Assembly (NCBI RefSeq): GCF_003431825.1
Contig: NZ_CP020084.1
Coordinates: 81,830 to 145,829, forward strand
Direction of reading: 5' to 3'
From: Blastomonas fulva
GTDB lineage: Bacteria > Pseudomonadota > Alphaproteobacteria > Sphingomonadales > Sphingomonadaceae
DNA length: 64,000 bases
The notes below the pieces were generated by a model. That model worked only from the letters and a program-made list of their open reading frames with translations, made no database searches and was not told where the DNA came from. Made by a program: the position numbers and the translations under genes. Of this stretch, positions 1 to 28,616 are shown one piece after another (the stretch's first letter is position 1; each line of letters starts with the position of its first letter).

Positions 1-45
1 CGCATTTTCTACCTCACCCAGATCGAGCCCGGGAGTGACTACTGA
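1..45 (+). CDS. 3' end of an upstream transfer gene (partial)
   Basis: The first 45 bases read without a stop as a 14-residue tail (RIFYLTQIEPGSDY) ending in TGA. The last base of that stop is the first base of the traH ATG, so the two genes are translationally coupled. In F-like operons the gene before traH is traF or trbB, so a TraF/TrbB-type periplasmic protein is the likely identity. The tail is too short to prove it. Confidence 0.55.
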   Translation, partial: RIFYLTQIEPGSDY

Positions 46-1487: not shown

Positions 1488-1499
1488 GGACCGCGTGCC

Positions 1500-8285: not shown

Positions 8286-8434
8286 TGTCCGACTATGTAG
8301 CGCTGTGCGCGGGATTTGCGAGGTTTTCCTGCAACAGCAATCTATCCACGATCCCGCCTCGCAGGGGTCCCCTGACATATCCGTTCGTCCGGCCATGGGC
8401 GTAGGATACTGCAGGCTCATCCAAGGAGCACCCC

Positions 8435-8722
8435 ATGGTTAAGATCACTGGTCTCGACAAATTTACCCGCACGCTCGACGATGCCCAGAAAGCCTTCGCC
8501 GAGATCGACGGCGAACTAGGTGCCGTCAATTTCAAACCCAACGATCCGGGCAGCATAGAGGCGGCCATCGCCCAGATGGAAGCCATGATCGACGAGCGCC
8601 TCGGAGACTACGCTTCCAATCCCATTGTCGTGCAGATGATGGAAGGTATGAAGGAGCGTTATCGCGACGCGATTATTGAACGTGCCGCGCAGGCCCGTAT
8701 GGAGGGCGATAGCGACCAATGA
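8435..8722 (+). CDS. small helical partner of the TIR protein
   Basis: A 95-residue, strongly helical and charged protein of unknown family (MVKITGLDKFTRTLDDAQKA at the start). An AAGGAG ribosome site stands 6 bases before the ATG. Its stop overlaps the TIR gene start in an ATGA, so the two are translationally coupled. A small partner upstream of a TIR effector could be an inhibitor, sensor or antitoxin. It contains no enzymatic motif. The assignment rests on gene order alone. Confidence 0.7.
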   Translation: MVKITGLDKFTRTLDDAQKAFAEIDGELGAVNFKPNDPGSIEAAIAQMEAMIDERLGDYASNPIVVQMMEGMKERYRDAIIERAAQARMEGDSDQ

Positions 8723-9621: not shown

Positions 9622-9655
9622 CCAAATGTCTGGCCGTTCACGTGCGCGTTGGATT

Positions 9656-9689
9656 GCCAACTTCCTGAGAGCAACCTGCGGAAGTTGGC
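9656..9689. terminator. 10-bp stem-loop between convergent genes
   Basis: GCCAACTTCC (9656-9665) and GGAAGTTGGC (9680-9689) form a perfect 10-bp stem with a 14-base loop. It lies 35 bases after the TIR gene and before the stop of the convergent Fic gene, so it could serve both directions. It lacks a clear U tract. Confidence 0.5.
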
Positions 9690-9753
9690 GAACCCTCGTC
9701 TCTTGGCCAGTGACCAAAATTGGGGCGCAAAGCTGACATCGGCCTTGGGCCTG

Positions 9754-10863
9754 TTACGCCGCTTCCGACACTTCCAGGAATAGCCGGACCAGCTCAGTAT
9801 TAATGTAGTAGTTGTGCTTGCCGGCGCGCTGCTTCACCACGAACCCCTGCTCTGCCAGTGCATCGAGGTACTTGGCGGCGGTCTGTCGGGCCCTCAGACC
9901 AAGATCCCGCTGGACGTACTCGATGCGTGTGTAGGGGTGCCGGAAGAGGTTGTTGAGCAGCTCCTGACTGTAAAGCCGCGGTAGCTCGGCACGCATCCTG
10001 TGTTTGGCCCTGGCCATTTGGTCGCGGATCCCTTCCACGATGCGGAGCGTGGTGGCCGCCGTCTCGGCGACGCCCTCGAGCATATAGATCACCCAAGCCT
10101 CCCATGCCTCCTGCGCCCCGGCGCTGTCACGCACAGCCTGAAGCAGGCGGTAATAGTCGGCTTTGTGCCGGGTGACGTGACGGGAAAGGTAGAGGACAGG
10201 GATGTCGAGCAGACCAGTGCGCGTCAGGTATAGGACGTTCAGGATGCGGCCAATGCGCCCGTTCCCGTCGGGGAAGGGGTGTATGCTTTCGAACTGATGA
10301 TGGATCAGCGCCATCTTGATCAGGGGATCGAGGTCGCTCACGGTATCGTCGTTCACAAAACGCTCGAGCGCGGTCATTTGCTCGACGATGTCCCGCGCAT
10401 CTTGTGGCGGAACATAAACGATTGCCCCGGTTCGGTCATGTTTCAGGGCAGTGCCGGGCGTCACCCGAAACCCGTCGTCGCGCCCCTTCAGCAGTCTGAA
10501 CATATCGATGAGAACGGAATTAGGGATCAGGCCCCCGGTCTCCAGAATTCGGGCATAGCCGAGCCGGAGGGCATCGCGGTAGAGCGCCACTTCCTTCGAG
10601 GCAGGTGATTGCGGGTCATCAGGAAAGAGGTCGGCCTGAAAAAGCTCGTCCTGGGTGGTGACGATGTTTTCGACTTCGGACGATGCCTTCGCTTCCTGAA
10701 GGGCAAGCGTGTCGATGAGGATCCCCTGATTGGGGATTGTGCGCGCCTGCCCCTTGAGGTCGGCAAGAGCCCGACTTGCGGCATTGAGTGCCTTGAGGAT
10801 GGGCACGGTTTCGAGGTCGACGCCCGGAGGAAGTGGTGGGATGATGTAGGTCGGCGCTAACAT
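9754..10863 (-). CDS. Fic family protein (class II, N-terminal inhibitory helix)
   Basis: A 369-residue Fic protein, expected to transfer AMP or another nucleotide from NTPs onto hydroxyl side chains of target proteins. The catalytic motif HPFPDGNGRIGR is intact at about residues 194-205. An inhibitory motif of the (S/T)xxxE(G/N) type is present near the N terminus as SSEVEN (about 61-66), which marks a self-inhibited class II Fic. The last 80 residues hold a winged-helix-like segment (YTRIEYVQRDLGLRARQTAAKYLDALAEQGFV), as in SoFic-type proteins, so the protein may bind DNA and regulate itself. A nested palindrome lies just upstream. No separate antitoxin is needed or seen. Confidence 0.93.
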   Translation of the reverse strand: MLAPTYIIPPLPPGVDLETVPILKALNAASRALADLKGQARTIPNQGILIDTLALQEAKASSEVENIVTTQDELFQADLFPDDPQSPASKEVALYRDALRLGYARILETGGLIPNSVLIDMFRLLKGRDDGFRVTPGTALKHDRTGAIVYVPPQDARDIVEQMTALERFVNDDTVSDLDPLIKMALIHHQFESIHPFPDGNGRIGRILNVLYLTRTGLLDIPVLYLSRHVTRHKADYYRLLQAVRDSAGAQEAWEAWVIYMLEGVAETAATTLRIVEGIRDQMARAKHRMRAELPRLYSQELLNNLFRHPYTRIEYVQRDLGLRARQTAAKYLDALAEQGFVVKQRAGKHNYYINTELVRLFLEVSEAA

Positions 10864-10874
10864 GACACTCGCAA

Positions 10875-10906
10875 CGTGTTAAAGAAATCGCGATTATCCT
10901 AACACG
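10875..10906. promoter_or_regulatory. nested palindrome upstream of fic, likely operator
   Basis: The outer arms CGTGTTA (10875-10881) and TAACACG (10900-10906) and the inner palindrome AATCGCGATT (10886-10895) share the same centre. Twelve of sixteen symmetric pairs match. It begins 12 bases upstream of the fic start codon, where a repressor would block transcription or initiation. The winged helix of the Fic protein itself is the obvious candidate binder. Confidence 0.6.
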
Positions 10907-11069
10907 ACAATGTGCACATGTCAGCGTTCTGCCAATCGCGCTTACCCGAAATATACGCCCACCCCCACTCCGCGACGCCAGCGCAGCAGTTAGCGCCCGC
11001 CGAAGCGAGTGTTCTGAGACGTGAAGCGGGCCCCCTCCTTGCCCCACGTCCAAATCGTAGGATATGCTC

Positions 11070-12101
11070 CTAGGTGTCCAGGAAGTCCCATTCGCTGCCG
11101 GTGACCCAGCGCAATGCGCTCAGCTTGCCGTTGAGCATTCCCCATTCGAAATCGTCCCAAGGCCCGAGGTTTTCTTCGCCAATCTCCTTCCTGGCCTGTT
11201 CACCGGCGGCGAGGGCTGCCTCCAAAGTGCCACGCGTAATCTGGTCCTGACGGTAATGGCCCTTCTCGGTCTTGCCCAACTCGTCCACGATCTCGATCTC
11301 GCCACTCTCCACGCGACACATTAGATTGAGATGGCGGTTGTACCAGACTTGGCGGAAAAGGAGGTGCTCCGCCTCCAATATCTCGCTCAAGCTGCGTGGC
11401 TTTTCCTCATACTCAAACTCCCACTTCAGGTCTTCCATCCAATCGGGAGCATAAGCGTTTAGCACCTCCCCGAGAGCGAGGGCATATGTGGAACCGTCTG
11501 CCGCAAATAGCTCGGCAATATCGGGATGTGGCGCTCGCTGATCGGCGTTCATGTCCGAGAAGTCGTGCTTATTGTGGGTCACGAAGGCAAGGTGATCGTC
11601 GTCGCCCTTGCCAACCAGCATGTCGCGGTAGATTTCCAACAAGACCGCATCTGCCATACTGTTCTTGTTTTTGTGAAAAGGGCAGAGCTTGTCGATTGCG
11701 CGCTGCGCGGCCCTGATTTTCACGTCATCCGAAGTCTGAACAATTGCCCCGTCGGTCAGCAGCTTCTCAATGCGATCGATGTTGAAATTGGCATATTCTC
11801 CTTGTTTGCTGATGCGGTAATCCATGTCGCTCAACTGCCTCAACAAGGTGTCGCGGCCTTCCTCTCCGCCGTGATCGCGAATGGCGTCGCTGACCCGCTT
11901 GAAGACCGCGCTGATGCTTTGGCTGGCTTCTTTGACCAAGCGGCCCTTGTTACGCTCGAACTCGTCCAGCGTCTGTTGAGGAACGACTAGTTCGACGTCG
12001 CCATCGCGGATCAGGTCGACGAGCACGTCTAGAGTTTTCAGGTGGCGATAATCCTTGGCAATGTCGAGCCACACGCAGGTATCGATCAGAATTCTCAGCA
12101 T
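11070..12101 (-). CDS. PIN-domain protein with DUF4935-like region
   Basis: A 343-residue protein beginning with a PIN ribonuclease fold. The acidic residue of strand 1 is Asp7 in MLRILIDTCVWLD. A conserved Glu lies in TLDEFERNK, an Asp in NSMADAVLLEIY, and the closing acidic/Asn pair in FVTHNKHDFSD, so the metal site looks complete. The C-terminal 140 residues are an extension. ATG 12101 with GGGAGG 6 bases upstream is preferred over a TTG 12 bases earlier. It is separated from fic by about 200 bases. No antitoxin partner is adjacent. Larger PIN/DUF4935 proteins often sit in defence islands; RNase activity is inferred. Confidence 0.75.
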   Translation of the reverse strand: MLRILIDTCVWLDIAKDYRHLKTLDVLVDLIRDGDVELVVPQQTLDEFERNKGRLVKEASQSISAVFKRVSDAIRDHGGEEGRDTLLRQLSDMDYRISKQGEYANFNIDRIEKLLTDGAIVQTSDDVKIRAAQRAIDKLCPFHKNKNSMADAVLLEIYRDMLVGKGDDDHLAFVTHNKHDFSDMNADQRAPHPDIAELFAADGSTYALALGEVLNAYAPDWMEDLKWEFEYEEKPRSLSEILEAEHLLFRQVWYNRHLNLMCRVESGEIEIVDELGKTEKGHYRQDQITRGTLEAALAAGEQARKEIGEENLGPWDDFEWGMLNGKLSALRWVTGSEWDFLDT

Positions 12102-12173
12102 GACGCCTCCCAAACTGCTTGTTATGGTAGGCGCAGAAGTTGGCGCGAAAAACCGGATTTAGGACTGGCCTAG

Positions 12174-15767: not shown

Positions 15768-16235
15768 TCAGTACTCGCTGCGATAGTCCGAGGTTAGGCC
15801 TGTTTGATCGGCAAGATCATCCAAAACGCATATCGTGGTTTGCAGCAGCAGCTTCATTCTGTCCGCATCAGTCCAATAGGCGCTGCCGTGCTTGCCACCG
15901 TGAAACAGATTGTTGCGCACGGCGTTTGCGAGCCGAACGACGCGCTCGAGATCGCTTGCCCCGGGATTGAAGCCGACGTCTCGAAAATCGAGGCCTGTCT
16001 CGGTTACGATTTGTCGCTTCGGGTTCGCTGCGATCAGTGCCTTGCCCGCTGCATTGATCTGATAGCCGTCCTTGTGCGCGTTGATGAAGCGGGTCCAGTC
16101 TGCCTCAGCCTTTTCGCCTGGCTCGAGCTTCTTCAGCATTCGCGCCTCTTTCAGCGCATATTCGAAGCGCGAGAACCAGAAGAAGAAGTCGTAGACGAGC
16201 GGACGAAGCTCGTCAGGGATTTCATCGTGTCGCAT
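15768..16235 (-). CDS. HEPN-domain protein paired with an Mrr-like nuclease
   Basis: A 155-residue helical protein. ANAVRNNLFHGGKHG (about 112-126) contains RNNLFH, a canonical R-N-x3-H HEPN catalytic motif. The N-terminal helices (YDFFFWFSRFEYALKEARML) also fit HEPN/MAE_28990-like proteins. The ATG overlaps the stop of the upstream nuclease-like gene by one base (TAATG), so the two are coupled. HEPN proteins act as RNases in toxin-antitoxin and abortive infection systems. Here it may be the RNA-targeting arm of a two-protein module with the gene at 16235-17215. Confidence 0.75.
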   Translation of the reverse strand: MRHDEIPDELRPLVYDFFFWFSRFEYALKEARMLKKLEPGEKAEADWTRFINAHKDGYQINAAGKALIAANPKRQIVTETGLDFRDVGFNPGASDLERVVRLANAVRNNLFHGGKHGSAYWTDADRMKLLLQTTICVLDDLADQTGLTSDYRSEY

Positions 16236-17215
16236 TAGAACGGCACATCGTCGTCGAGGTCGTCCCACGCCGGAAGCTTCGATGGAAGCGCGCCTTTGGG
16301 CAGGGGCAGATTGCTGACGACGAACAGATTGAGGATGTCGTCCCTGTCCATGAACATCACCTGCGACCGCTTGCTTGCATCGAGCTTGTTACCAATCCAG
16401 TTGCGCGCCTGCTTGGTGATTTCGCCTCCAGCAACGATGAACGCGTGATCAACCAGCACCCGGCGGTTCAGCTCGGGATCGAAGATCTCGTGGCCAAGCA
16501 TCATCATCACCTGGTTGTGGATCTCAGCGACGTTGGAGGTGCTCACGCCGGAAGCATCGAGCTTTCCCTTCTTTGCCTGAATGCCGAAATAGAGGACGTG
16601 AAGGGTCGGCAGCGTGTATTTCATCCACACATCCTTCCCATATTCCAGTGCCTTGTCCTTGTGCCCTGCGGATGTGATTCGGTGGAAGCCGAGCTGGCGG
16701 AAGAGCGGCAATAGCACTTCCTCAATCAACTCATCCTCGGAGCACTTGCCAAGATAGGCGAAGAGCTGATCGCGGCGCTCGACCTCGGATGGCGTGAATG
16801 GGCGATGGGGATTGGCCATCTGCGCGATGGTATTGGTTGCAACATGCCGAAGCTGTGCGAGGCCGTCCTCATCATAAAATGCGGCCCAGCCTTCATGAAG
16901 TAGAACGATATTGAGTGCCGAAAGCGCTTTCGAGCGATCGATGTCATCGCCCTCGGCTTCGCACTTGTCGAGAAGGCGGCGGATAATCCGCAGAAAAGCG
17001 TCGGGCATGGATGTCTGGGTGGGGCCGGGCATGGCCAGCACTTCTTCGAGCCGCTCTGCTACCCAGACCGGGCGCGTTTCGCCATTATGAACGAACTCAA
17101 GATCACAGTCCTCGAAGAATTCGGTGATGTATTTGCTTGAGCGATACTGAAAATGCTCAACGTCGCCCACGATCATTCGGCTCAGATCGCGCAGGTTGCG
17201 AGGCTTCCATTTCAT
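16235..17215 (-). CDS. putative Mrr-like PD-(D/E)xK nuclease with helical N terminus
   Basis: A 326-residue protein. The N-terminal 125 residues are helical, reminiscent of AbiJ-NTD/HEPN-associated leader regions. The C-terminal half has a restriction-endonuclease-like block. EEVLLPLFRQLGFHRI is the typical lead helix. An acidic GKD then sits near residue 197, followed about 15 residues later by YFGIQAKKGK, where QAK takes the place of the (D/E)xK signature, as in Mrr proteins. It is divergent from the SNF2 helicase gene, 217 bases away, with an 18-bp palindrome between them. No exact family is recognised. DNA cleavage is inferred from the motif layout. Confidence 0.65.
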   Translation of the reverse strand: MKWKPRNLRDLSRMIVGDVEHFQYRSSKYITEFFEDCDLEFVHNGETRPVWVAERLEEVLAMPGPTQTSMPDAFLRIIRRLLDKCEAEGDDIDRSKALSALNIVLLHEGWAAFYDEDGLAQLRHVATNTIAQMANPHRPFTPSEVERRDQLFAYLGKCSEDELIEEVLLPLFRQLGFHRITSAGHKDKALEYGKDVWMKYTLPTLHVLYFGIQAKKGKLDASGVSTSNVAEIHNQVMMMLGHEIFDPELNRRVLVDHAFIVAGGEITKQARNWIGNKLDASKRSQVMFMDRDDILNLFVVSNLPLPKGALPSKLPAWDDLDDDVPF

Positions 17216-17360
17216 CGCCAGAACATATGCTTACGTCACCGACTCATCAAGGTGAGTAGCTGCGTGAAGATACCCTTCAACCTTTGATTTGAGGACGTCG
17301 CGACTGGGCAGCTCGCCTCGATGCCCGGACAAGGCGCAGATTGGCGCAGAAAAGCTCGCG

Positions 17361-17378
17361 ATACGAAGGCCTTCGTAT
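17361..17378. promoter_or_regulatory. 18-bp perfect palindrome in divergent promoter region
   Basis: ATACGAAGGCCTTCGTAT is a perfect 18-bp palindrome. It lies 145 bases upstream of the nuclease-like gene and 54 bases upstream of the SNF2 helicase start, in the only intergenic space between the two halves of this locus. It could be a shared operator. No regulator gene lies inside the locus. Confidence 0.6.
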
Positions 17379-17432
17379 GGCTGATGAGTTTCGGGGGCTA
17401 GTCTGATTTACAGGCCATGCTACCCAGTCTGG

Positions 17433-20309
17433 ATGCGGATTACCGATTACCACGCCCGACTTTTCTCGTACCAGGTGACTCGGCAGGCGCCATCCGGTGC
17501 TGAGGATAACCTGTCGATGTCGTTGTTTGACGCATCGGTTGATCTCAACCCGCACCAGATCGAAGCCGCAACCTTCGCGCTGCAATCGCCATTGTCTCAG
17601 GGCGTCATACTTGCCGATGAGGTGGGCTTAGGCAAAACCATCGAGGCGGGGATTGTGCTCTGCCAGAAGTGGGCGGAGCGCAAGCGCCACCTGATCATCA
17701 TCTGCCCCGCCGCCATCCGCCAGCAATGGGCGAACGAACTTCAAGAGAAGTTCAATCTGCCGGCGTTTGTTCTGGACGCAAAAACCTACCGTGAGCTGCG
17801 CCGAGAAGGCCATGCTTGGCCTCTTGAGCAGAAGGCTGTGCTGATCACTTCCTATCATTACGCGGCGAGGCTGCAGGACGAGGTACGTGCGATCGAATGG
17901 GACCTCGTGGTGATCGACGAGGCCCACAAATTGCGGAACGCCTACAGGCAGAGCAATCGGCTTGGGCAGGCGATCCGATGGGCAACCGAGGGTCGCAAGA
18001 AGCTTCTGCTGACCGCCACCCCGCTTCAGAACAGCCTGCTTGAACTTTATGGCCTGTCGACGTTGATCGATGAGGATCTCTTTGGCGACCAATATGCCTT
18101 TCGCGCGAAGTACATGAACGCGGGCGGCAGCATCGCGGAACTGCGTGGCCGCCTGACCGAATTCTGCAAGCGGACGTTGCGCCGCCAGGTCATGGAGTAC
18201 GTTCGCTACACGGCAAGGCATGCCCTGACCCAGCCATTCTATCCCACCGATGCAGAGCAGGAGCTCTACGATCTGGTTACGAAGTTTCTCGAGGAAGAGG
18301 GGACGTATTCGGTGCCGGATCGGCAAAGGCATCTCACGGTGCTGGTGATGCGCAAGTTGCTCGCGTCATCGTCGGTTGCAATTGCCGGAACCCTCTCGAC
18401 TATGAAATCTCGGCTAGAGGAACTCCGCAAGAGCGAAGCCGATTCCGGCAGTGATTTGCTCGAGGCCCTGCTCGAAGATGAGGAATTCGAGCCTGAGTTG
18501 CTTGAGGAGTGGGAGACGGAGAGCGATCCGGAAGATCGAGAGCTGGTCATCCAACCGATCAAACTGCGCAAGGAAACCGAAGAGATTGCTGCGCTGGTTG
18601 ACCGGGCGAAGGCGATCCAGACCGACAGCAAGACTTTTGCGCTCCAAAAGGCGCTGGATATCGGTTTTGCCAAGCAGGCCGAAATGGGCGCCAAGCGCAA
18701 AGCGCTGATCTTTACTGAGTCCCGTCGGACCCAGGATTATCTTAGACGATTCCTCGAAGATAACGGACACCGAGGGAAGGTCGTCAGCTTCAGCGGCACC
18801 AACGCTGGCGAGGACAATCAGGCGATCTACGAGCGCTGGATCGCCGAAAATGCCGACAGCGGCCGTTCCACCGGGTCTCGCGCGATCGACATGCGTAGTG
18901 CCTTGATCGACCATTTCCGTGACCATGCCGACATCATGATCGCGACCGAGGCGGCGGCCGAGGGCGTCAACCTCCAATTCTGCTCGATGGTCATCAATTA
19001 TGACCTGCCCTGGAATCCGCAGCGGATAGAGCAGCGGATCGGACGGTGCCACCGCTACGGCCAGACCCACGACGTCATCGTCATAAACTTCCTCAACGAG
19101 CGCAACGCGGTCGATATGCGCGTGCATGAATTGCTCCGCGACAAGTTCAAGCTGTTCGACGGCGTTTTCGGCGCGTCGGATGAGGTGCTCGGCGCCATCG
19201 AGTCAGGTGTCGATTTCGAGCGCCGGATCCTGGCGATCTATGAGAAGTGCCGGACTGAGGACGAGATCAAGTCGGCCTTTGATGCCTTGCAGGCCGAGCT
19301 TGAGGAGCAAATCGCCTCTCGGATGGACGAGACCCGCGCCACGCTGTTGGAGCATTTTGACGAAGATGTTCACGCCCGGCTGAAGCTGCGTCTGGATGAG
19401 ACCAAGGCTCAGCTCGACCGGATCAGCAGCAAGTTCTGGGACGTCACGCGGCACATGCTGGACACGGCAGCGAAGTTTGATCCTGCCAGCCTCACTTTCG
19501 ACCTCCACCAGCCACCAGCGCCTGAAATCCCCCGCGGCCGATACCATCTGATTTCAAAGCTGCGCGAAGACGGGCTGGAGACAAACGCCTACGGTAGCTT
19601 CCTGTACCGGCTGTCTCATCCGTTGGGTGAGCATGTGCTCGATGCGGCGAAGGCCCTTCCAACACCCACGGCCGAACTGCACTTCGATGTCAGCGGGCAT
19701 CCGGTTCGCAACGCCGTCATGGAGGAAATGCGGGGGACCAGCGGGTGGCTCAGTCTGCGCCGGCTGACCATTTCCGCATTCGAGGATGAGGAGCATCTCC
19801 TGCTCTCGGGCATGGATGATGACGGGCGCTCGCTCGATGCCGAAGTCTGCGAGAAGATGTTCTCCATCGGCGCCACGGTGGGGCGTCCGATCTCGGTGCC
19901 CGATGGAATCGCTGCGCGGCTTCAGGCCGGTGCCGAGCGTCTCGAAAAGGCGACGCTCAATCAGGCTGCCGAGGCCAGCGGCAAGCACTTCGCCCAGGCG
20001 CGAGAGAAGCTGGAGCAGTGGGCTGAGGACAAGATCTTCGCGGCAGAACGGGCGCTCAAGGACACCAAGGAGCAGATCAAGGCGATGCGCCGGCAGGCGC
20101 GGAACGCCGCCACCGTCGAGGAGGAGCACGAGGCTCAGAGAAAGTTGCAGGAGCTGGAGCGCAAGCAGCGTAAGCAGCGGCAGGAAATCTTTGACGTTGA
20201 AGACGAAATTGCCGAACGTCGGGACAGCATGATCGATGCGCTGCAAAAGCGCATGGCTCAGCGCACGCAGTCGGAAACTCTGTTCACCATTCGTTGGTCG
20301 GTTATCTGA
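17433..20309 (+). CDS. SNF2-family helicase of a putative defence system
   Basis: A 958-residue SNF2/RapA-like ATPase. Walker A is DEVGLGKT (62-69), the Walker B box DEAH (162-165) and motif III LLLTATPLQNS (about 190). The second RecA domain carries motif V (TEAAAEGVNLQ) and motif VI (QRIEQRIGRCHRYGQ). The last 350 residues are helical, ending in a long charged coiled coil. DrmD of DISARM is a comparable SNF2 protein, but no DrmA, DrmB or DrmC is present. It heads a tight four-gene cluster with an unknown gene, a methyltransferase and a Res-like helicase. SNF2 ATPases translocate along duplex DNA, so a role in moving along or remodelling invading DNA is inferred. Confidence 0.9.
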   Translation: MRITDYHARLFSYQVTRQAPSGAEDNLSMSLFDASVDLNPHQIEAATFALQSPLSQGVILADEVGLGKTIEAGIVLCQKWAERKRHLIIICPAAIRQQWANELQEKFNLPAFVLDAKTYRELRREGHAWPLEQKAVLITSYHYAARLQDEVRAIEWDLVVIDEAHKLRNAYRQSNRLGQAIRWATEGRKKLLLTATPLQNSLLELYGLSTLIDEDLFGDQYAFRAKYMNAGGSIAELRGRLTEFCKRTLRRQVMEYVRYTARHALTQPFYPTDAEQELYDLVTKFLEEEGTYSVPDRQRHLTVLVMRKLLASSSVAIAGTLSTMKSRLEELRKSEADSGSDLLEALLEDEEFEPELLEEWETESDPEDRELVIQPIKLRKETEEIAALVDRAKAIQTDSKTFALQKALDIGFAKQAEMGAKRKALIFTESRRTQDYLRRFLEDNGHRGKVVSFSGTNAGEDNQAIYERWIAENADSGRSTGSRAIDMRSALIDHFRDHADIMIATEAAAEGVNLQFCSMVINYDLPWNPQRIEQRIGRCHRYGQTHDVIVINFLNERNAVDMRVHELLRDKFKLFDGVFGASDEVLGAIESGVDFERRILAIYEKCRTEDEIKSAFDALQAELEEQIASRMDETRATLLEHFDEDVHARLKLRLDETKAQLDRISSKFWDVTRHMLDTAAKFDPASLTFDLHQPPAPEIPRGRYHLISKLREDGLETNAYGSFLYRLSHPLGEHVLDAAKALPTPTAELHFDVSGHPVRNAVMEEMRGTSGWLSLRRLTISAFEDEEHLLLSGMDDDGRSLDAEVCEKMFSIGATVGRPISVPDGIAARLQAGAERLEKATLNQAAEASGKHFAQAREKLEQWAEDKIFAAERALKDTKEQIKAMRRQARNAATVEEEHEAQRKLQELERKQRKQRQEIFDVEDEIAERRDSMIDALQKRMAQRTQSETLFTIRWSVI

Positions 20310-20322
20310 GAGCCCTCATACT

Positions 20323-20832
20323 ATGCCAACCAAACCCTCGGACATTGGATGGTATCCGCGCGATCCGAACTATCGCAAGACCTATGAGGACGCCATGCGT
20401 GCGGCTCTGCGCCACTATGCGAGGCATGGTGACGTGACGCAGGTTCAGCAACTGCTGCAGCTCGTTACAGACAAGGAGGCCCGGTTCGTCATTGCGAGGC
20501 GGGTCGCTGCGCAGTTTCCAATTCGGGTCAATCAAAGCGGAAAGCTCTCACGCGATAAGGATCGCTCGCCAGATTTTGATTGGAGTGCGATCGAAACTGC
20601 CAGCTTTTGGCCCCGACGAATTCAAAGCGATGCCGGGCACATCTCCATTCGGAATGAAGATTTCTCGCTCTCAGAACTCATCGACGAAGTGATTGATGTG
20701 CTTGTGCTTCACCGTCATACCATAGCGGACGGCGACCTCGAGCGGTTGCAGAATGCGGTCGACACTGTAGCTAAGCGTCGACGATCAACGGCACCGTCCG
20801 AGTCAGGGCTGCCGACGTCCCCCGAGGAGTGA
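20323..20832 (+). CDS. conserved-looking small protein between SNF2 helicase and methyltransferase
   Basis: A 169-residue soluble protein with no recognised domain. It starts with MPTKPSDIGWYPRDPNY, continues with several amphipathic helices and ends in a disordered basic/proline tail. The start is 13 bases after the helicase stop, and the stop lies 2 bases before the methyltransferase GTG start, so it is an integral member of the cluster. Such proteins may link helicase and methyltransferase or recognise partner DNA. That is a guess from position only. Confidence 0.65.
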   Translation: MPTKPSDIGWYPRDPNYRKTYEDAMRAALRHYARHGDVTQVQQLLQLVTDKEARFVIARRVAAQFPIRVNQSGKLSRDKDRSPDFDWSAIETASFWPRRIQSDAGHISIRNEDFSLSELIDEVIDVLVLHRHTIADGDLERLQNAVDTVAKRRRSTAPSESGLPTSPEE

Positions 20833-20834
20833 AT

Positions 20835-23800
20835 GTGAGCAAATTCGACGAACTCGTCACCAAGCTGCGCGAGATTTTCCAGATTGACCGGCCGGAGCTT
20901 GATTTCGGCGTCTACCGCATCCTCAATGCCCGCGCGGACGAGATCAACGAATACCTGACCAAGCGACTTCGGGAGCAAGTAGAAGCGGCGCTGGCTACGG
21001 GCTCCGCCGCCAACATGGAGGCCCAGCAGCGCGAGCTTGAGGAGGCGATCAAGGCTGCTAAGGCGCTCGGCGCAGACCCCGAAACGCTCCCCAAGGTCAA
21101 GGAATTGCGCGCCGCGATCGCCGGTGCGGCATCCGGCGCGTCCGATCACGAAAACGCTGTGTTCTCGCACCTGCTGGCGTTCTTCTCGCGCTACTACGAC
21201 AAGGGCGATTTCATCAGCCAGCGCCGGTACAAGGGCGATACCTATGCCATCCCCTATGCCGGGGAGGAGGTGGTGCTGCATTGGGCCAACAAGGACCAGT
21301 ACTACACCAAGTCCGGCGAGGCGTTCAGCAACTACGGCTTCAAGCTGCCCGATGGCCGCGCGGTCCGGTTCCAGCTGATCGCCGCGGACACCGCCAAGGA
21401 CAATCGCAAGGACAATGACAAGGACCGCCGCTTCGCGCTAGCCGAGGCGCGCACTGTCACCCGCGTCGATGATGAGGGCGAGCCTTACGAGGAAGAGATC
21501 GTCCCCATTGGCGAGGAAGACGGCGATCTTGTCATCCGGTTCGAATACCGGGCCTTCCCGGCCAAGACAAAGCAGGAAAGCCTCGTCGATGCCGCGGTGC
21601 AGGCCGTGCTGGCTGATGAGGCGGTGAAGGCGAGCTGGCTGGACCTGACCACCCGCGCGCCGACGGACAAGAACCCGCAGCGCACCGTGCTGGAAAAGCA
21701 CCTGACGACCTATACCCAGAAGAACACGGTCGACTACTTCATTCACAAAGACCTTGGCACGTTCCTCCGGCGGGAGCTCGATTTCTACATCAAGAACGAG
21801 GTGATGAACCTCGACGATGTGCAGGATGCCAAGAGTTTCGCCGCGATCGAGGCCAACCTGCGAATGATCCAGTGCCTGCGCAAGATTGCGCAGGATCTAA
21901 TCACCTTCCTTGCCAGCATCGAGGATTTCCAGAAGAAGCTGTGGCTCAAGAAGAAGTTCGTCGTGGCGGCGCATTATTGCGTCACGCTCGATCGCGTGCC
22001 CGAGGCGCTCTATGACCGGATCGCAGCCAACCCCGCACAATGGGCGCAGTGGCACGATCTGGGCATGCGCGACAGCGCTGCACTTGGTACCGCCGCAGAC
22101 CTGAAAGCCCAGCCCTATCTGATGGTGGACACCGCGCTGTTCGACGCCACTTTCCGCGCTGACCTGCTCAAGGCTATTCCTGATCTGGATGCCTGCACGG
22201 ATGGCTTGCTAGTGCATGGCGACAATTTCCAAGCGTTGGCGTTGTTGGATGAGCGGTATCGGGAAAAAGTAAAATCCGTTTATATCGATCCGCCATATAA
22301 TACTGGCGACGATGGATTTGCTTACAAAGACTCATATCGCCATTCTTCTTGGATGACTATGATTGCCAATCGCATTCCATTGATGAAATCGGTCATGAAA
22401 TCGAACGGGATATTCTCGGTAAGCATCGATCGGGACGAGAACAGGAACCTATTACCATTGCTTTTTTCCGAATTTGGAGAGGGTAACTTCCTCGAAGAAG
22501 TCGTTTGGAAAAAAGCCTATGGCGGCGGTGCTAAGACAAAGCACATCAACAATTTGCATGAATATATTCACCAGTTTGCGATCGATAAGGGTGCCGTCCC
22601 CTTTCTCGATCTTCCGCCCGATCCGGATGCTGTCAAATATTATAAATTGAAGGATGGAAAATTCGAAGTGCGAGGGAAGCACCGGCTTCAGCCTTTGAAC
22701 ACCAACAGCAATGATTTTCGAAAATCTCTCACGTATCCAATCCCAGTTCCTCCGATTTCCACTTTAGGCTCAAAGGGTTGGTCGGATGAGGCTAAGCGGA
22801 TTGCTGGGTGCTTGGATCGCAATGAAATTCAATTAACCGGCTCCTTTGAAGAGGGATGGCTTCTTGCCAACGAAGACGGCTCGCCTTGGCAGGGTGAGTT
22901 CGTCAAGCCGGAAAGGCAGTGGCAATGGAGCTGGGACAAAGTGCGCCAAGCGCTCATCGACGATGAGATCGTGATCACCTTGTCCGACGGCGTTCCCATT
23001 GCAAGCTACAAGCAGTATCGGTTTAATGAAGCTGGTGAAGAACGCGGCAGAAAGCCCGCTAGCGTTCTAATTGGGCCATATACACAGAGCGGGACTGATG
23101 CGGTCCGAAGTCTCTTTGGTTTTGATGCGGCAAAGTTTCCAAAGCCCGTTGGCCTAATCCAGGATATCATTGGCATTGGATACAAAGACAGATCTGCTCT
23201 TGTTGCAGATTTTTTTGCTGGCTCTGGCACAACCGGCGAGGCGACGTTCACGCTAAACCGTTCTGATGGCGGAAGCAGAAGGTATATCTTGTCTGACCAA
23301 GGTGCATCGTTCGACACAGTGCTTAAGCCGCGAATGCAAAAGGTCACGTATTCAGCAGAATGGGTCGACGGAAAGCCCACGGCTCCCAACACGGGCATCA
23401 GCCACGCTTTCAAGGTGCTGAAGATCGAAAGTTACGAGGACACCCTGAACAACCTGACGCTCAAGCGTGACGCTGCTCAGCAGGGCCTGCTCGAGCGCAT
23501 GGGTGAAGGTGCGCGCGATGAATATCTGATGCGATACATGCTCGACGTAGAGGCGCGCGGATCGTTGCTCTCGGTCGAGGATTTCAAAAAGCCATTCGAT
23601 TACGAGTTGGATATTGCGGTCGACAGCGCCGGTGCCACCCAGCGCACCAAGGTCGATCTTGTCGAGACGTTCAACTACCTGATCGGGCTCACGGTCAAGG
23701 AATATGATTCCGACATCCGTCGTGGTTACGTTCGTGTGACGGGAACGCTGCCTGACGGAAAATTGGCCCTTATCATTTGGCGAGATTGCGAGGTCATTGA

Positions 23801-24011
23801 TCACGACCGGCTGCAACGCTTGATACCTCGCTTCGATCTGGATCTCGCCGAGAGGTCGAGCAAATACGAAGTGATATACATCAATGGCGACCACAACATT
23901 CCGCTCATCTACAGTGGAGCGGAAGGTGACGGCGTCGTTGAACGAACGCTGAAGCTGCGGCAGATCGAACCGGAGTTCCTTTCCCGCATGTTCGATGTGG
24001 CGGATGCCTGA
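20835..24011 (+). CDS. large beta-class DNA methyltransferase (type III Mod-like)
   Basis: A 1058-residue DNA methyltransferase. The catalytic motif IV is DPPY in VYIDPPYNTGDDG (485-488). The AdoMet motif I is FAGSGTT (794-800). DPPY preceding FxGxG is the beta-class order of type III Mod subunits, with target recognition in between. Mod proteins are usually about 650 residues. The extra 450 at the N terminus are helical and basic and could contact the helicases. Start GTG 20835 has GAGGAG 5 bases upstream; a GTG at 20829 is less likely. Bases about 22230-23340, which encode the catalytic and recognition part, are clearly poorer in GC than both flanks. Product expected to be N6-methyladenine. 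Confidence 0.92.
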   Translation: MSKFDELVTKLREIFQIDRPELDFGVYRILNARADEINEYLTKRLREQVEAALATGSAANMEAQQRELEEAIKAAKALGADPETLPKVKELRAAIAGAASGASDHENAVFSHLLAFFSRYYDKGDFISQRRYKGDTYAIPYAGEEVVLHWANKDQYYTKSGEAFSNYGFKLPDGRAVRFQLIAADTAKDNRKDNDKDRRFALAEARTVTRVDDEGEPYEEEIVPIGEEDGDLVIRFEYRAFPAKTKQESLVDAAVQAVLADEAVKASWLDLTTRAPTDKNPQRTVLEKHLTTYTQKNTVDYFIHKDLGTFLRRELDFYIKNEVMNLDDVQDAKSFAAIEANLRMIQCLRKIAQDLITFLASIEDFQKKLWLKKKFVVAAHYCVTLDRVPEALYDRIAANPAQWAQWHDLGMRDSAALGTAADLKAQPYLMVDTALFDATFRADLLKAIPDLDACTDGLLVHGDNFQALALLDERYREKVKSVYIDPPYNTGDDGFAYKDSYRHSSWMTMIANRIPLMKSVMKSNGIFSVSIDRDENRNLLPLLFSEFGEGNFLEEVVWKKAYGGGAKTKHINNLHEYIHQFAIDKGAVPFLDLPPDPDAVKYYKLKDGKFEVRGKHRLQPLNTNSNDFRKSLTYPIPVPPISTLGSKGWSDEAKRIAGCLDRNEIQLTGSFEEGWLLANEDGSPWQGEFVKPERQWQWSWDKVRQALIDDEIVITLSDGVPIASYKQYRFNEAGEERGRKPASVLIGPYTQSGTDAVRSLFGFDAAKFPKPVGLIQDIIGIGYKDRSALVADFFAGSGTTGEATFTLNRSDGGSRRYILSDQGASFDTVLKPRMQKVTYSAEWVDGKPTAPNTGISHAFKVLKIESYEDTLNNLTLKRDAAQQGLLERMGEGARDEYLMRYMLDVEARGSLLSVEDFKKPFDYELDIAVDSAGATQRTKVDLVETFNYLIGLTVKEYDSDIRRGYVRVTGTLPDGKLALIIWRDCEVIDHDRLQRLIPRFDLDLAERSSKYEVIYINGDHNIPLIYSGAEGDGVVERTLKLRQIEPEFLSRMFDVADA

Positions 24012-27000
24012 TGACACGTGCGCCCGCCAGGAAACGCAGCTTCCATCAGGAGCTGGTGCTCAATCGCTGGATGCTCTCCCACTTCCGGGGGAAGAGCCTC
24101 GCCGTGCTCAAGGAACGCCTGGGTGCTGACCGGCATGAAGGGCTGGACGATGACGGGCAGACGCGGTTTTTCCACGAACTGGTGCGCGACCTGTTCGAAT
24201 ATGACCGCATCAGCAATACCGAGCTGCGCCGCTATGACCTGAACATCGTTGCTCATTGGAAGGCGATCACCGAAAAACGCAACGTCGCCGAGGGCGCGGT
24301 GCTGACGATGAAGTACTTCCAGTACCTCAGCCTGCTGTTCAGCGAAATCTACCTCGACTGGTATTTCAACCATCGGCAGGACTTGCTCGATGGCCTGAAC
24401 GCCGAGCTGAAGGCGTACAGTGAGGAAGAGGGGGCCGAGCCGTTCCGCCCCTATACCGCAGACGATCTCAACAAGATCGCCTATTGGAGCGCGACCGGGA
24501 GCGGCAAGACGTTGCTGCTGCATGTCAACATCCGGCAGTATCTGCAATACTATCGCGGCGGCAACGCCGGCACGGCTTCCGGAACATACCCCGACAAGAT
24601 CATCATCCTCACCCCCAATGAGGGCCTGTCGCGCCAGCATCTTGAGGAGCTGTCGCTCTCCGGATTCTCGTTCCATCGCCTATTCGACAAGAACCGTGCC
24701 CCCGACTTCCCCGGCACGATCGAGGTGATCGACGTCAACAAGCTCGGGGATGAGGGCGGCGACAAGACTGTCGCCGTGGACGCCTTCGAAGGCGACAATC
24801 TCGTGCTGGTAGACGAGGGCCATCGCGGAACCAGCAGCGGTGCAGGCGCATGGCTTGCCCGCCGCGAGAAGCTGGTGAGCAAGGGCTTTGCCTTCGAATA
24901 CAGCGCAACATTCTCGCAGGCTGTCGGTAAGGGAATGACGGTCGAAAAGGCGGAAGAGGAACTGCTTAAGCGCAAGGCCAAAAGGATCTTCCCGGAGCGC
25001 CAATGGCGCACCTTGACCGGTGACGAACGGGCGCAGCTGAGCCTCAGCCTCGCAGAGCAGAAGCGGGCGCGCAGCGATGCCGTGAAGGAGACTTACGCCA
25101 AGGCAATCCTGTTCGATTACAGCTACAAGTTCTTCTACGCTGATGGCTACGGCAAGGAGCACCTAATCCTCAACCTTGCGGACGACCGCGATGAGGAGAC
25201 CCGCGCGCTCTATTTCACGGCATGCTTGCTGGCCTTCTACCAGCAGCTCTACCTGTGGGAGACGAAGCGGTCCGTCATGGCCGACTTCAATATCGAGCGG
25301 CCACTCTGGGTGTTTGTCGGCCATACTGTCGCTGGGGAAGAGAGCGACCTTATGGCGGTGCTCGGCTTCCTCGCCGGGTTCCTGAACAATGACGAACGCG
25401 CCAAAGGCTGGATCGCAGAGCTGATCGCCGACCGAGCCCAACTGCTTGATACCAAGGGGCGTAGTATCTTCGCCGGGCGCTTCACTCCACTTCTCGGGCA
25501 AGATGCAGAAGCCGTCTATGCCGATATCCTGCGCCGCGTTTTCAATGCGGAATCGCGCCAGCGGCTGAAGCTCATCAACCTCAAGAGCAGCAAGGGCGAG
25601 CTTGCGCTGCGTGTTGGCAGCTCAGAGCCATTTGGCCTGATCAACATCGGCGATGACAGCGGCTTCTTCAAAACGGCCGATGAGGCCGAAACCGGGTTCG
25701 ATACCGAGAGCTACGATTTCGCTGGCAGCCTGTTTCATCAGATCAACCTGCCTGACAGCCGCATGTCGATGCTGGTGGGGTCGCGCAAGTTCACCGAGGG
25801 CTGGTCGAGTTGGCGGGTGTCCACCATGGGCTTGCTCAATATGGGGCGGGGGGAGGGCTCGCAGATAATCCAGCTCTTCGGCCGCGGCGTTCGCCTGAAG
25901 GGGCGTGACATGTCGCTGAAACGGTCATTGCCGACCGAGCGGCCGAAGGGAAGCTACCTGGAAAAGCTGGAGGCGCTCAACATTTTCGGGGTGCGGGCCG
26001 ACTACATGGCCACTTTCCGCGAATATCTGATCGAGGAAGGGATCACGCCGAGCGACGAGATCATCACGCTCGATTTTCCGACCCGCAGCAACCTGCCGAC
26101 TGGCAGGCGCCTGAAAACCCTCAAGCTGCGCGATGGCTACAAAGACAATCAGGCCAAAGGGTTCAAGCGAGTCCATTTTCCATGGCTCTACGAGGTGCCT
26201 GCAGAATTCGAAGGCAAGATCAAACCGCCGCATGTCACGCTGGACCTCTACCCACGCGTTGAAGCCATGGCCTCCGACGGCAAGGGGCAGACGGATGACG
26301 GTAACGCGCGCCACATCGGCAAGATCGACCGGGCCTTGATGGCCATGTTCGACTGGGATCGCCTTTTCCTGTCGTTGCAGCAGTACAAGCTGCAGAAGAG
26401 TTGGAGCAATCTGCGCCTCGAGAAGGCACGGCTTCGTCAATTCTGCGAGAGCCGCGACGACTGGTACACCTTGTTCATGCCAGCGAGCGAGCTGACGTTC
26501 TCGGGCTTTACGACGGTCCTGAAACTTCAGGACGTCCTGCTCCAGCTGCTGTGCGACTATACTGATCGTTTCTATCAGGGCCTGAAAGCGGCCTATGAAG
26601 GTCAGTATTTCGACCTCGATGAGGTGACGGAAGAGCATGGCTCGATGCTCAAACTATACCAGTTCGAGATCGAGAACAGCGACGCCGGCGAAACCTACCT
26701 GAACCGTTTAAAGGCGCTGCAGGAGCTTGTTGCGGCGGGGAACATCGGCGAAGCCAGCAAGTGGCATGCGGCCAATATGGTAGCGATCAGCTTCGATCGG
26801 CACCTGTTTTATCCGCTGCTTTGCCCGGTCAAGGACGGCACCCTGCCGTTGAAGATGAGACCGCTAGGCCTTGGCGCGGAGAGTGAAGTCAGGTTCGTGC
26901 ACGACCTCATGGCCTTTTACGAATCCGATGCTGGGCGCAAAGCAATAGGGAAACGGAGCCTTTACCTGCTTCGAAATGCTGACAGTAAAGCCAAAGGGCT

Positions 27001-27349
27001 GGGCTTCGCCCTGGCTGGAAATTTCTACCCGGACTTCTTGCTGTGGCTCATTGATGATGAAACTGGCCATCAGAACCTCAGCTTCCTTGACCCCAAAGGC
27101 ATTCGTAATCTGGATCTCGACGATCCCAAGTTCGGCCTCTTCCGGGAGGTCAAGAAGCTCGAGGGTGAGATCGGGGATGGCTCACTTAGCTTGAACGCAT
27201 TCATCCTGTCCGAAACTGACTTTGGGGATCTGCTCAACTCGCGGCGGCTGAACCGTGCGGACCTCGAGGCGAGGAATGTCCTCTTCATGGAGAAGAGCAA
27301 CAGCAACTATATCGACCAGCTATTCAGGGCCATCGCTGCGCCCCAGTAG
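24011..27349 (+). CDS. type III Res-like helicase-nuclease
   Basis: A 1112-residue DEAD/DEAH-type protein. Walker A is ATGSGKT (161-167) and the motif II box is DEGH (268-271). Motif VI lies around QLFGRGVRLKG (about 620). Near the C terminus is a PD-(D/E)xK-type nuclease block: PDF at 1007-1009 and DPK at 1027-1029 (FYPDFLLW and SFLDPKG), as in type III Res subunits. The start overlaps the methyltransferase stop by one base (TGATG), so Mod-like and Res-like subunits are coupled. With the SNF2 helicase upstream, the cluster has two different DNA translocases and one methyltransferase. Restriction is expected on unmodified DNA, possibly with help from the SNF2 subunit. Confidence 0.9.
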   Translation: MTRAPARKRSFHQELVLNRWMLSHFRGKSLAVLKERLGADRHEGLDDDGQTRFFHELVRDLFEYDRISNTELRRYDLNIVAHWKAITEKRNVAEGAVLTMKYFQYLSLLFSEIYLDWYFNHRQDLLDGLNAELKAYSEEEGAEPFRPYTADDLNKIAYWSATGSGKTLLLHVNIRQYLQYYRGGNAGTASGTYPDKIIILTPNEGLSRQHLEELSLSGFSFHRLFDKNRAPDFPGTIEVIDVNKLGDEGGDKTVAVDAFEGDNLVLVDEGHRGTSSGAGAWLARREKLVSKGFAFEYSATFSQAVGKGMTVEKAEEELLKRKAKRIFPERQWRTLTGDERAQLSLSLAEQKRARSDAVKETYAKAILFDYSYKFFYADGYGKEHLILNLADDRDEETRALYFTACLLAFYQQLYLWETKRSVMADFNIERPLWVFVGHTVAGEESDLMAVLGFLAGFLNNDERAKGWIAELIADRAQLLDTKGRSIFAGRFTPLLGQDAEAVYADILRRVFNAESRQRLKLINLKSSKGELALRVGSSEPFGLINIGDDSGFFKTADEAETGFDTESYDFAGSLFHQINLPDSRMSMLVGSRKFTEGWSSWRVSTMGLLNMGRGEGSQIIQLFGRGVRLKGRDMSLKRSLPTERPKGSYLEKLEALNIFGVRADYMATFREYLIEEGITPSDEIITLDFPTRSNLPTGRRLKTLKLRDGYKDNQAKGFKRVHFPWLYEVPAEFEGKIKPPHVTLDLYPRVEAMASDGKGQTDDGNARHIGKIDRALMAMFDWDRLFLSLQQYKLQKSWSNLRLEKARLRQFCESRDDWYTLFMPASELTFSGFTTVLKLQDVLLQLLCDYTDRFYQGLKAAYEGQYFDLDEVTEEHGSMLKLYQFEIENSDAGETYLNRLKALQELVAAGNIGEASKWHAANMVAISFDRHLFYPLLCPVKDGTLPLKMRPLGLGAESEVRFVHDLMAFYESDAGRKAIGKRSLYLLRNADSKAKGLGFALAGNFYPDFLLWLIDDETGHQNLSFLDPKGIRNLDLDDPKFGLFREVKKLEGEIGDGSLSLNAFILSETDFGDLLNSRRLNRADLEARNVLFMEKSNSNYIDQLFRAIAAPQ

Positions 27350-27370: not shown

Positions 27371-27673
27371 TTAATGCCTCCAGGCAACGGTGATTATCGA
27401 GCTGTCCTCGGCCACGACGATGTAGACGTTCCGGAACCGCTCATGTCCTGCGATCGCTGGGCCCATGTATCCTGCAAAGGTCTTCCATGTGGCTTTGGTG
27501 AAGCTGTATGATCTGCAAGCGCCGCCTACGAAGCGTTCGTCGCCAAAGTCGATTAGCGCGTCGATTATAAACTGCGGGACACTCCGTTGAGCTTGTCGCC
27601 GATGCCCATGGCGTGAGAAGCGAAGATCACCGCGGCCGGAAATCATGCCATTGACGAACGGGGTTTTGTCCAT
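27371..27673 (-). CDS. DUF4258-like small protein, probable toxin
   Basis: A 100-residue protein. The C terminus (NVYIVVAEDSSIITVAWRH) has the beta-strand ending of DUF4258/RelE-fold small toxins. A strong AAGGAGG ribosome site, which overlaps the end of the XRE gene, stands just before its ATG. It lies 10 bases downstream of that gene, so the pair resembles a toxin-antitoxin operon with the antitoxin first. It is convergent with the Res-like gene. Confidence 0.55.
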   Translation of the reverse strand: MDKTPFVNGMISGRGDLRFSRHGHRRQAQRSVPQFIIDALIDFGDERFVGGACRSYSFTKATWKTFAGYMGPAIAGHERFRNVYIVVAEDSSIITVAWRH

Positions 27674-27683
27674 AGCGGCCTCC

Positions 27684-28616
27684 TTACACGTTCACATTGA
27701 TGAGCAGGTCGCCGAAGAGCCCTTGAAGCTTCTGGTCATGCTTGGCTTTCTGCTCCCGCATCCAAGCAATTCTCGCTTCTGCGTCATCGGAAGTGCGAAG
27801 GGCTTTCGGGAGTTTTGCAAGGGGCACAGCCCCGGATAGAATTGCCCTTGCCAGATCCTCGTCCCCGCGTGCGATGGCTAGTGCCTCCTCGCTGCCAATT
27901 TCATACGACGGGCTTCGCCAAACCGGCCAAACATCTAGCGACGGGGCTGTGTCACCATCTGGCCTCACAGCTGAAAGGCGGCGATTGAGATAGTCCACGA
28001 AGGGGTTATTGCACTCGTCGTCGTAGTCCGCCGGCACGAAGGCGTCTTCGAGGCTGTCATCGGCAAGGACATAGGCAGCGCGAATATCCCTATTCCTGAT
28101 CGAGGCCTCCTCCCGGCTCTCGACTTCTTCGGCTTGCCAGTCGTGAAGAAACCTGCCGCCTAGGTGGGAGTAGCGCTCGCCCATGCTCGCGACCGCGTCT
28201 CGGCGGAGCCAGAGTTCTGCCAGGTTACGGCTGCGCTCGAGTAGGCTTTCGCGGGCCAAAAGATCAAACAGCAGGGGGGCGAGTTCGAGGATGGTCTCGC
28301 GTGTTTCGTTGTAGCGCAATGCCACGAGCTCAAGGGCATTCTGTGCCGCGCTCGATATGCTGATGTTAAGCGGTACGCGATCGTTGAAAAGCGATTGAGA
28401 TTGTTCAGCATCGGGAGGTGTGAACAAGTCCGCAACCTGGCATTTGAGGGCATTTGCCAGCCTTTTCGCGGTCTCTGCCCGCGTGGTGCCTGCTGTTCCA
28501 TTTTCGAGTCGAGTGATCGTCGCGCGACCGACGCCCGCTTCGACAGCTAGCGCTTCGGCGGTAAGTTTTGCTCCCTTGCGCAGGAAGATCAATTTCTGTG
28601 GATTGATGGTGCTCAT
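27684..28616 (-). CDS. XRE-family transcriptional regulator with long C-terminal domain
   Basis: A 310-residue protein. A clear helix-turn-helix of the Cro/CI type lies at residues about 8-62 (AEALAVEAGVGRATITRLENG). The C-terminal 240 residues are helical, with an acidic stretch, and unassigned. It is followed by the DUF4258-like gene, which suggests an antitoxin or regulator of that gene. It could also control the neighbouring restriction-like locus, whose last gene is convergent with it. Confidence 0.75.
   Translation of the reverse strand: MSTINPQKLIFLRKGAKLTAEALAVEAGVGRATITRLENGTAGTTRAETAKRLANALKCQVADLFTPPDAEQSQSLFNDRVPLNISISSAAQNALELVALRYNETRETILELAPLLFDLLARESLLERSRNLAELWLRRDAVASMGERYSHLGGRFLHDWQAEEVESREEASIRNRDIRAAYVLADDSLEDAFVPADYDDECNNPFVDYLNRRLSAVRPDGDTAPSLDVWPVWRSPSYEIGSEEALAIARGDEDLARAILSGAVPLAKLPKALRTSDDAEARIAWMREQKAKHDQKLQGLFGDLLINVNV

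Follow-up and report, generated by a model that had tools for sequence, protein, structure and literature searches.

A conserved SNF2 ATPase gene accompanies Mod and Res in a probable three-component type III restriction-modification system of Blastomonas fulva

We examined a 64,000-nucleotide stretch of Blastomonas fulva DNA (contig NZ_CP020084.1, positions 81,830 to 145,829; hereafter the window). It carries genes for an SNF2 ATPase, a beta-class N6-adenine methyltransferase (Mod) and a helicase-nuclease (Res), which together probably form a type III restriction-modification (R-M) system of three components, in which an optional further gene can sit between the core genes. In the open papers of PMC, REBASE and supplementary files lying outside that search, we found no description of SNF2-Mod-Res as a system, of the conserved linkage to SNF2, of the exchange of its Mod-Res partners or of the effector slot. 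An initial annotation of this DNA had proposed either a type III-like system expanded by a second translocase or a distinct system; the first half of this proposal stood, the trio being a type III variant. All six reading frames listed in that annotation were found at their positions, four on the plus strand and two, for a HEPN-like and an Mrr-like protein, divergent from them (Table 1). On the plus strand a gap of 13 bases separates SNF2 from the gene for a 169-amino-acid (aa) protein (20309/20323), which overlaps Mod by 4 bases (20832/20829), and Mod overlaps Res by 1 (24011/24011). The core is the trio of SNF2, Mod and Res; the six genes are not one system.

A search with the SNF2 protein in 398 Pseudomonadota genomes gave matches in 104. 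At 20 places in 19 of the 398 genomes, the window included, the match was full-length or nearly so, with at least 40% identity and at least 644 bits; below these came four partial matches, and after them other SNF2 proteins, which scored no more than about 140 bits. The open frames at all 20 places were scored with profiles built from plasmid loci and locus L031. Mod and Res were detected on the SNF2 strand at 16 of the 20 places, at one of which (L029) both the SNF2 frame and the Mod frame are fragmented. At the remaining four the contig ends, in L083 and L090 after a Mod frame and in L091 and L093 within about 2 kb of SNF2; one of the partial matches (L101) also ends with its contig. No Mod or Res frame above 60 bits was detected at any of 20 control places, which were lower-scoring SNF2 places read in stretches of 6.5-20 kb, some of them cut by contig ends. 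The loci nearest to that of the window were from Novosphingobium sediminis (L002) and a Sphingomonadaceae metagenome-assembled genome (L003).

Similar results were obtained with plasmids. At least 80% of SNF2 was matched in one place in 44 plasmid records, all with at least 39% identity. Seventeen of these were opened, most of the others being listed as Klebsiella- or Salmonella-type with the same scores, and in 16 of the 17 Mod and Res lay on the SNF2 strand within about 9 kb, downstream of SNF2 in all except one (L020). The plasmid trios span Pseudomonadota, Bacteroidota (Hymenobacter), Deinococcota and Planctomycetota. Judged from these neighbourhoods, the SNF2-Mod-Res link is conserved across bacterial phyla, and the outcome that the initial annotation had named as damaging to its proposal, neighbours differing in nearly every genome with the SNF2 gene, was not what we observed. 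Some copies are damaged. Insertion sequences interrupt Mod in L048, and the SNF2 and Res frames are broken in L046, the stretch of which is matched at 99.8% by two Escherichia coli chromosomes with annotated SNF2, methyltransferase and DEAD/DEAH genes. In the seventeenth record opened, a Thioclava plasmid (L145, 8995-12696), a single frame, a natural fusion, joins about the first 826 SNF2 profile positions to the C-terminal half of Res, without Mod, as a deletion would leave. With the trio of a Klebsiella locus (L019) as query, 157 of 5426 E. coli genomes gave a match, only two of them over most of the query, and 181 of the 185 matching places were on plasmids; six short matches among those listed correspond to a 298-base piece of Res (query bases 8411-8708) annotated as a DUF1158 protein.

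Mod scored 1111 bits against the PADLOC model MTase_III (PDLC03646, profile length 1057) and Res 1506 bits across residues 7-1108 against REase_III (PDLC03654). Both are already catalogued in PADLOC as type III R-M, and as parts they are known. In Mod the DPPY motif (487) precedes FAGSGTT (796), so that motif IV stands before motif I in the beta order, a pattern present in 31 of 31 complete loci. The protein matched EcoP15I Mod (4zcf_A) and two further solved Mod-type proteins, relative to the first of which it has an N-terminal extension of about 360 aa. The Res of the window carries a Walker A motif, DEGH and a C-terminal PDF...DPK block; across the complete loci the Walker A pattern was found in 31/31 and the nuclease pattern in 29/31. 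Searched alone by phmmer, Res had no match in the PDB at E 0.01; when 12 short partner Res proteins were combined in a profile, EcoP15I Res (4zcf_C) was matched at 4e-58. Three type III features were found: the beta-class order of Mod, the superfamily 2 (SF2) motor and nuclease of Res, and an exchangeable Mod region, the last by comparison only. Three further arrangements were seen around Res. In L027 a second, DrmD-like SNF2 gene follows Res; in L086 (3361-6701) two tandem Mod genes stand upstream of a single Res, perhaps two specificities for one nuclease; and in L031 (2508-6571, genome G330) the Gabija pair GajA and GajB, named by PADLOC, comes directly after Res.

The SNF2 protein contains the Pfam domains SNF2-rel_dom and Helicase_C. 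Its top profiles were those of DrmD, with 670 bits for PDLC02619 (PADLOC) and 674 bits for DISARM_DrmD_b (NCBIfam), the curated cut-off of which is 950, and its best solved relative was RapA. The motor motifs DEVGLGKT, DEAH and QRIGR are identical in 31 of 31 complete loci, which makes ATP-driven DNA translocation likely; on these motifs SNF2 is a probable dsDNA translocase of RapA/DrmD type.

The partners of this SNF2 fall into two classes by their open frames, a long one with Mod of about 1030-1190 aa and Res of about 1080-1270 aa and a short one with about 520-690 and 885-1000 aa. Among the 31 complete loci, those of the short class showed 38-56% identity to the window in SNF2 and only 15-19% in Res. 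In a tree of the 31 SNF2 proteins and seven others, all 31 lay on one side of a branch with 100/100 support. The long and short labels need 4 and 5 changes on this tree, of which the well-supported branches force 3 and 4, and a long locus (L031) and a short one (L085) are sisters at 100/100. One SNF2 clade on which the labels interleave shows that Mod-Res partners from different type III lineages have been exchanged under one SNF2 lineage. On a smaller scale, the window and L002 are 97% identical in SNF2, 96% in Res and 94-100% in the first 400 columns of Mod, with only 10-30% between motifs IV (487) and I (796) and 48-88% in the C-terminal part. Near relatives in general gave mostly 10-38% in the Mod recognition region versus 68-100% in the first 400 alignment columns. 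Such a pattern looks like the exchange of a target-recognition region, and it is mainly this region that near relatives appear to exchange.

The gap between core genes was read in 35 loci. L047 and L146 were taken as one locus, L029, L035, L083, L090, L091, L093 and L145 were omitted, and close relatives, the window and L002 for instance, are not independent of each other. A gene of more than 150 aa occupied the gap in 19 loci; there was none in 13, and three were unclear (L047, L088, L095). In 13 of the 19 loci the slot genes belong to families tied to abortive infection, nucleases or candidate defence, according to Pfam, PADLOC or the record annotation. These are AIPR, AbiU-like where scanned (L042, L084, L086, L087, L089), RhuM (L031, L084), Dsr2 with YhcG (L094), Schlafen-AlbA (L096), HEC-01-like AAA+DUF4276 (L018 and, by annotation only, L048), DUF262 (L043 and L046, by annotation only and for L046 through its E. 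coli relatives) and Abi (L041, annotation only). The 169-aa protein was found in the slot of the window, of L002 and of L034 (40% identity) and in no other of 97 loci. A protein search with it returned three homologues (P0007-P0009), no profile of Pfam, PADLOC or NCBIfam matched it, and it resembled neither the other slot genes nor the DUF4391 loci described below. Its AlphaFold model was mostly helical and of low confidence (mean predicted local distance difference test score 52.6). Because of its slot position we regard this protein as a candidate effector or regulator of a new family. After Res, on the minus strand of the window (27371-28616), stand genes for a 100-aa protein and a 310-aa helix-turn-helix protein, possibly a toxin-antitoxin-like pair. 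This pair was present in L002 (73-76% identity) and in none of 14 other loci compared, and it was left out of the system.

SNF2 linkage, provided by either of two different SNF2 families, may be common among type III systems. The Res model PDLC03654 was run on overlapping sets of 197, 398 and 396 genomes and matched ten different genomes, in seven of which SNF2 stands beside Res (G000, G060, G105, G125, G526, G330, G709); in G248 there is only a remnant of SNF2, in G356 the locus is cut by the contig start, and in G325 the match covers 80 positions only. A profile of short Res, made from 12 sequences of which four came from the 398 genomes themselves, found 21 places above 540 bits in these genomes, with 12 linked to SNF2 and 7 cut by a contig end. 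As type III controls we took 11 lower-scoring Res places (below 450 bits), mostly on larger contigs. Unexpectedly, in eight of them (L132, L134, L135, L137, L138, L139, L141, L142) a different SNF2-family protein of 1063-1097 aa is followed by a DUF4391-related gene and then by Mod, with one more gene before Mod in L135 and L141 and with Mod in pieces in L134. Pfam named DUF4391 in all four loci tested, and in L132 the SNF2 protein is C3a139 'HKD+Snf2' of PADLOC, Mod and Res fitting PDLC03634 and PDLC03647. As in the window, a gene of the SNF2 family precedes Mod-Res in these loci and a small gene separates them; the differences are the SNF2 family and DUF4391 replacing the 169-aa protein. The HKD-SNF2 family scored 91-118 bits on the profile of the present clade, against more than 1190 for its intact full-length members.

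The most serious alternative is an ordinary two-gene type III R-M system, with SNF2 either as a passenger or as an independent defence gene that tends to occur in the same mobile islands. Mod and Res alone satisfy the PADLOC type III models, and several observations weigh against SNF2 as a fixed component. In Priestia, Athalassotoga and two haloarchaea the stretches read contain long Mod-Res but not this SNF2. The first two carry in its place a UvrD helicase with a PD-(D/E)XK (PDDEXK) domain (L022 6096-9002, L025 6256-9042), and the haloarchaeal plasmids have other neighbours. Two of 14 decidable short-type Res places lack SNF2 despite room on the contig (L123, L124; genomes G408, G329), and in G248 Mod and Res stand beside a mere 96-residue SNF2 remnant. 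Conversely, the partial matches L099 and L100 are SNF2 pieces without Mod or Res, and a 34%-identical SNF2 piece cut by a contig start (L102) has no Mod or Res in the next 9 kb. The gene order in Conchiformibius (L020) is Mod-Res-SNF2. The nuclease block of Res reads EPHG instead of (D/E)xK in L027 and L028, and these copies may therefore not cut. The SNF2 tree, finally, gave long-branch warnings for the joins among the seven outgroup rows and for their join to the clade. Mod-Res without this SNF2 does occur, and Mod-Res therefore does not always need it. A passenger, however, should not share the strand of Mod and Res at every one of the 16 decidable full-length places, and across phyla, when the controls gave 0 of 20, nor should it keep its place through exchanges of the Mod-Res lineage. 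We therefore consider the passenger explanation unlikely. The conserved SNF2 breaks with the description 'Mod and Res only'; this description is not counted as strictly defining, and membership of the three-component system as a type III variant therefore stands.

A degenerate or variant DISARM system, consisting of DrmD and a methylase, is scarcely credible. SNF2 does score best on DrmD models, and its coupling to a DNA methylase recalls DISARM class 1, but it remains under the curated DrmD cut-off, the methylase is a type III Mod and the nuclease is the system's own Res. DrmB is expected to carry an MZB/DUF1998 domain. No match to this domain was found anywhere in the own genome (two contigs, 4.12 Mb, with the window on contig C2), and DrmA, DrmB and DrmC are not named in the annotations of the opened plasmids, where no profile scan was made. 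For BREX, the best PglZ match reached 20.3 bits against a cut-off of 25 and lay on the other contig. These domain and profile tests confirmed the initial annotation in setting both systems aside. That annotation had also named, as an outcome against it, a described system into which all the genes fit. This was half the case: Mod and Res fit, SNF2 is below its cut-off and nothing matches the 169-aa protein.

In the usual description, a type III enzyme consists of Mod and Res and slides passively once ATP has driven a switch. Type III systems methylate one strand of an asymmetric site, and their cleavage requires ATP. In the excerpts of PMC4490356, EcoP15I is a Mod2Res1 complex that requires a pair of inverted sites and, once switched by ATP, moves by diffusion along the DNA. 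The window resembles it in a beta-class Mod with its recognition region between motifs IV and I, in a Res with SF2 motor and PD-(D/E)XK nuclease, and in the adjacency of the two genes; by these motifs, Mod and Res have the parts for an EcoP15I-like mechanism. It differs in the conserved SNF2, in the accessory slot and in size, with 1058-1060 versus 644 aa for Mod and 1112 versus 970 for Res, the EcoP15I values being solved-chain lengths. BREX-related type 1 systems combine a DUF499 ATPase, an N6-methyltransferase and an SNF2 protein, with nucleases nearby as backup effectors (PMC12839542, excerpts). They share the three-gene logic of methylase plus SNF2 helicase, but no DUF499 or DUF1156 was found by Pfam among the 26 window proteins scanned, and the nuclease of the window is a separate Res. 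ARMADA comprises a BrxHII/RapA-like helicase, a PglX-like methylase and a YprA helicase, and its tested type II needs all four genes (PMC12458937, excerpts). It likewise places a RapA-like SNF2 beside a methylase and another helicase, but the own genome has no MZB/DUF1998 (YprA helicase), and the second helicase here is a type III Res with nuclease. On these grounds neither the BREX-related group nor ARMADA was kept as a classification. Looser parallels appear in excerpts of other papers: a Cronobacter element whose cargo includes an SNF2 helicase, Mod and a type III restriction endonuclease, not linked together (PMC12757443); predicted R-M operons with MORC ATPases, one group of which contains SWI2/SNF2 helicases and another type III-type helicases (PMC2292703); and HEPN fusions with SWI2/SNF2 helicases (PMC3710099). 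The trio was not described in the excerpts of PMC10853773, PMC8565338, PMC8079144, PMC3874151, PMC5704250 and PMC11090510.

The initial annotation had further proposed that the HEPN/Mrr-like pair is a backup toxin arm. The one basis for the HEPN call is an RNNLFH motif at residue 118, which we take to be a HEPN signature, and for the Mrr call there are only a D...QAKKG block and a single homologue (P0123), which bears the name 'restriction endonuclease'; no profile of Pfam, PADLOC or NCBIfam names either protein. The Mrr-like protein (P0002 family) has 3812 relatives, the best 120 of which are 74-99% identical, and no Pfam hit. Its gene is present in two genomes in which the Res model was unmatched (G015, G018) and on two plasmids that were opened. 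Relatives of the HEPN-like protein occur in 29 plasmid records, one of which was opened. A tblastn search of the 97 loci detected neither gene in trio loci beyond the window, and never both together; the Mrr-like gene was found only in L039, L040, L051 and L052 and the HEPN-like gene only in L143, all fetched for these genes. The palindrome between the divergent genes is real, with 12-nt arms that are 92% complementary, but an exact search in 142 loci recovered it only in the two that contain the window's own stretch. A composite of all six genes with a HEPN/Mrr toxin arm would draw on the divergent arrangement across this palindrome in the window; since neither gene is found in other trio loci and the palindrome in no relative fetched, we judge it very improbable, and the toxin arm was dropped. 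The HEPN-like and Mrr-like genes are most simply two separate island genes.

Table 1. Positions of the core genes, the slot gene and neighbouring features in the window
Feature	Position	Strand	Remarks
SNF2 ATPase (RapA/DrmD_b-like), core gene 1	17433..20309	+	958 aa
169-aa protein, no family assigned, SNF2-Mod slot	20323..20832	+	program-listed open reading frame begins 20236
Long Mod, beta-class N6-adenine methyltransferase, core gene 2	20829..24011	+	GTG start 20829 or 20835; 1060 or 1058 aa
Mod target-recognition region, apparently exchanged	22330..23200 (approximate)	+	about residues 500-790, between DPPY and FAGSGTT
Res, SF2 motor and C-terminal PD-(D/E)XK nuclease, core gene 3	24011..27349	+	1112 aa
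Mrr-like putative nuclease	16235..17215	-	neighbour, outside system
HEPN-like protein (RNNLFH)	15768..16268	-	neighbour, outside system
Palindrome between divergent genes	17358..17381	none	seen in window only
CAP12/Pycsar-type TIR protein	8719-9621	+	
SoFic-like Fic protein	9754-10863	-	
PIN_12 protein	11070-12113	-	

Conjugation genes of the traH and traG families lie at 45-4286 of the window, about 13 kb from the trio, and in Sphingopyxis (L050), Aeromonas (L018) and Klebsiella (L019) the trio is 2.5-7 kb from traG- or tra-type genes. Since the trio is repeatedly near tra genes, conjugative elements may offer it a recurring site. Other genes of the island (8719-12113) code for the CAP12/Pycsar-type TIR, SoFic-like Fic and PIN_12 proteins.

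For the three-component system we propose the following mechanism. Mod would recognise a short site, which its exchangeable target-recognition region determines, and methylate it. The Mod-Res complex would inspect unmodified sites, use ATP to slide on the DNA and cut on meeting a second complex, as EcoP15I does. SNF2 would serve the same complex whatever its sequence specificity, most likely by moving on incoming DNA, where it would remove or shift bound proteins and thereby give Mod-Res access to its sites or allow it to be driven between them. The independence of SNF2 from both the recognition region and the Mod-Res lineage speaks against a share in recognising the site and favours a general function, be it clearing, directional movement or licensing; among these we regard the clearing or translocating role as the likeliest, though as such it is still rather doubtful. 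The slot gene, here that of the 169-aa protein, would most likely supply an accessory effector or a regulator of one, held in check while restriction works. What the comparison of loci shows is the conserved trio with its modularity, the exchange of the recognition region and the kinds of genes that fill the slot in other loci; all the biochemical steps of SNF2 and the 169-aa protein, and phage defence by this copy, are what we infer; family and context suggest the label 'defence'.

A broader idea, slightly less doubtful and still tentative, is that many type III R-M systems are not two-subunit enzymes. The SNF2 translocase could be a true third subunit, acquired at least twice, once as the RapA/DrmD-like protein and once as HKD-SNF2 with DUF4391. 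The trio could then be a chassis on which Mod-Res and recognition regions are exchanged, and the space between its genes would serve as an effector bay, its occupant (AIPR, Dsr2, RhuM, Schlafen or here the 169-aa protein) being released when restriction is blocked.

The occurrence of the trio in very distant bacteria suggests that type III systems often hold a part that is absent from the textbook account. If this is true, the conserved SNF2 motor would be an extra component of the type III enzyme in vivo. Such a third component would explain why profile libraries return separate type III and DrmD-like hits, and the gap between the core genes is a place to look for new abortive-infection effectors.

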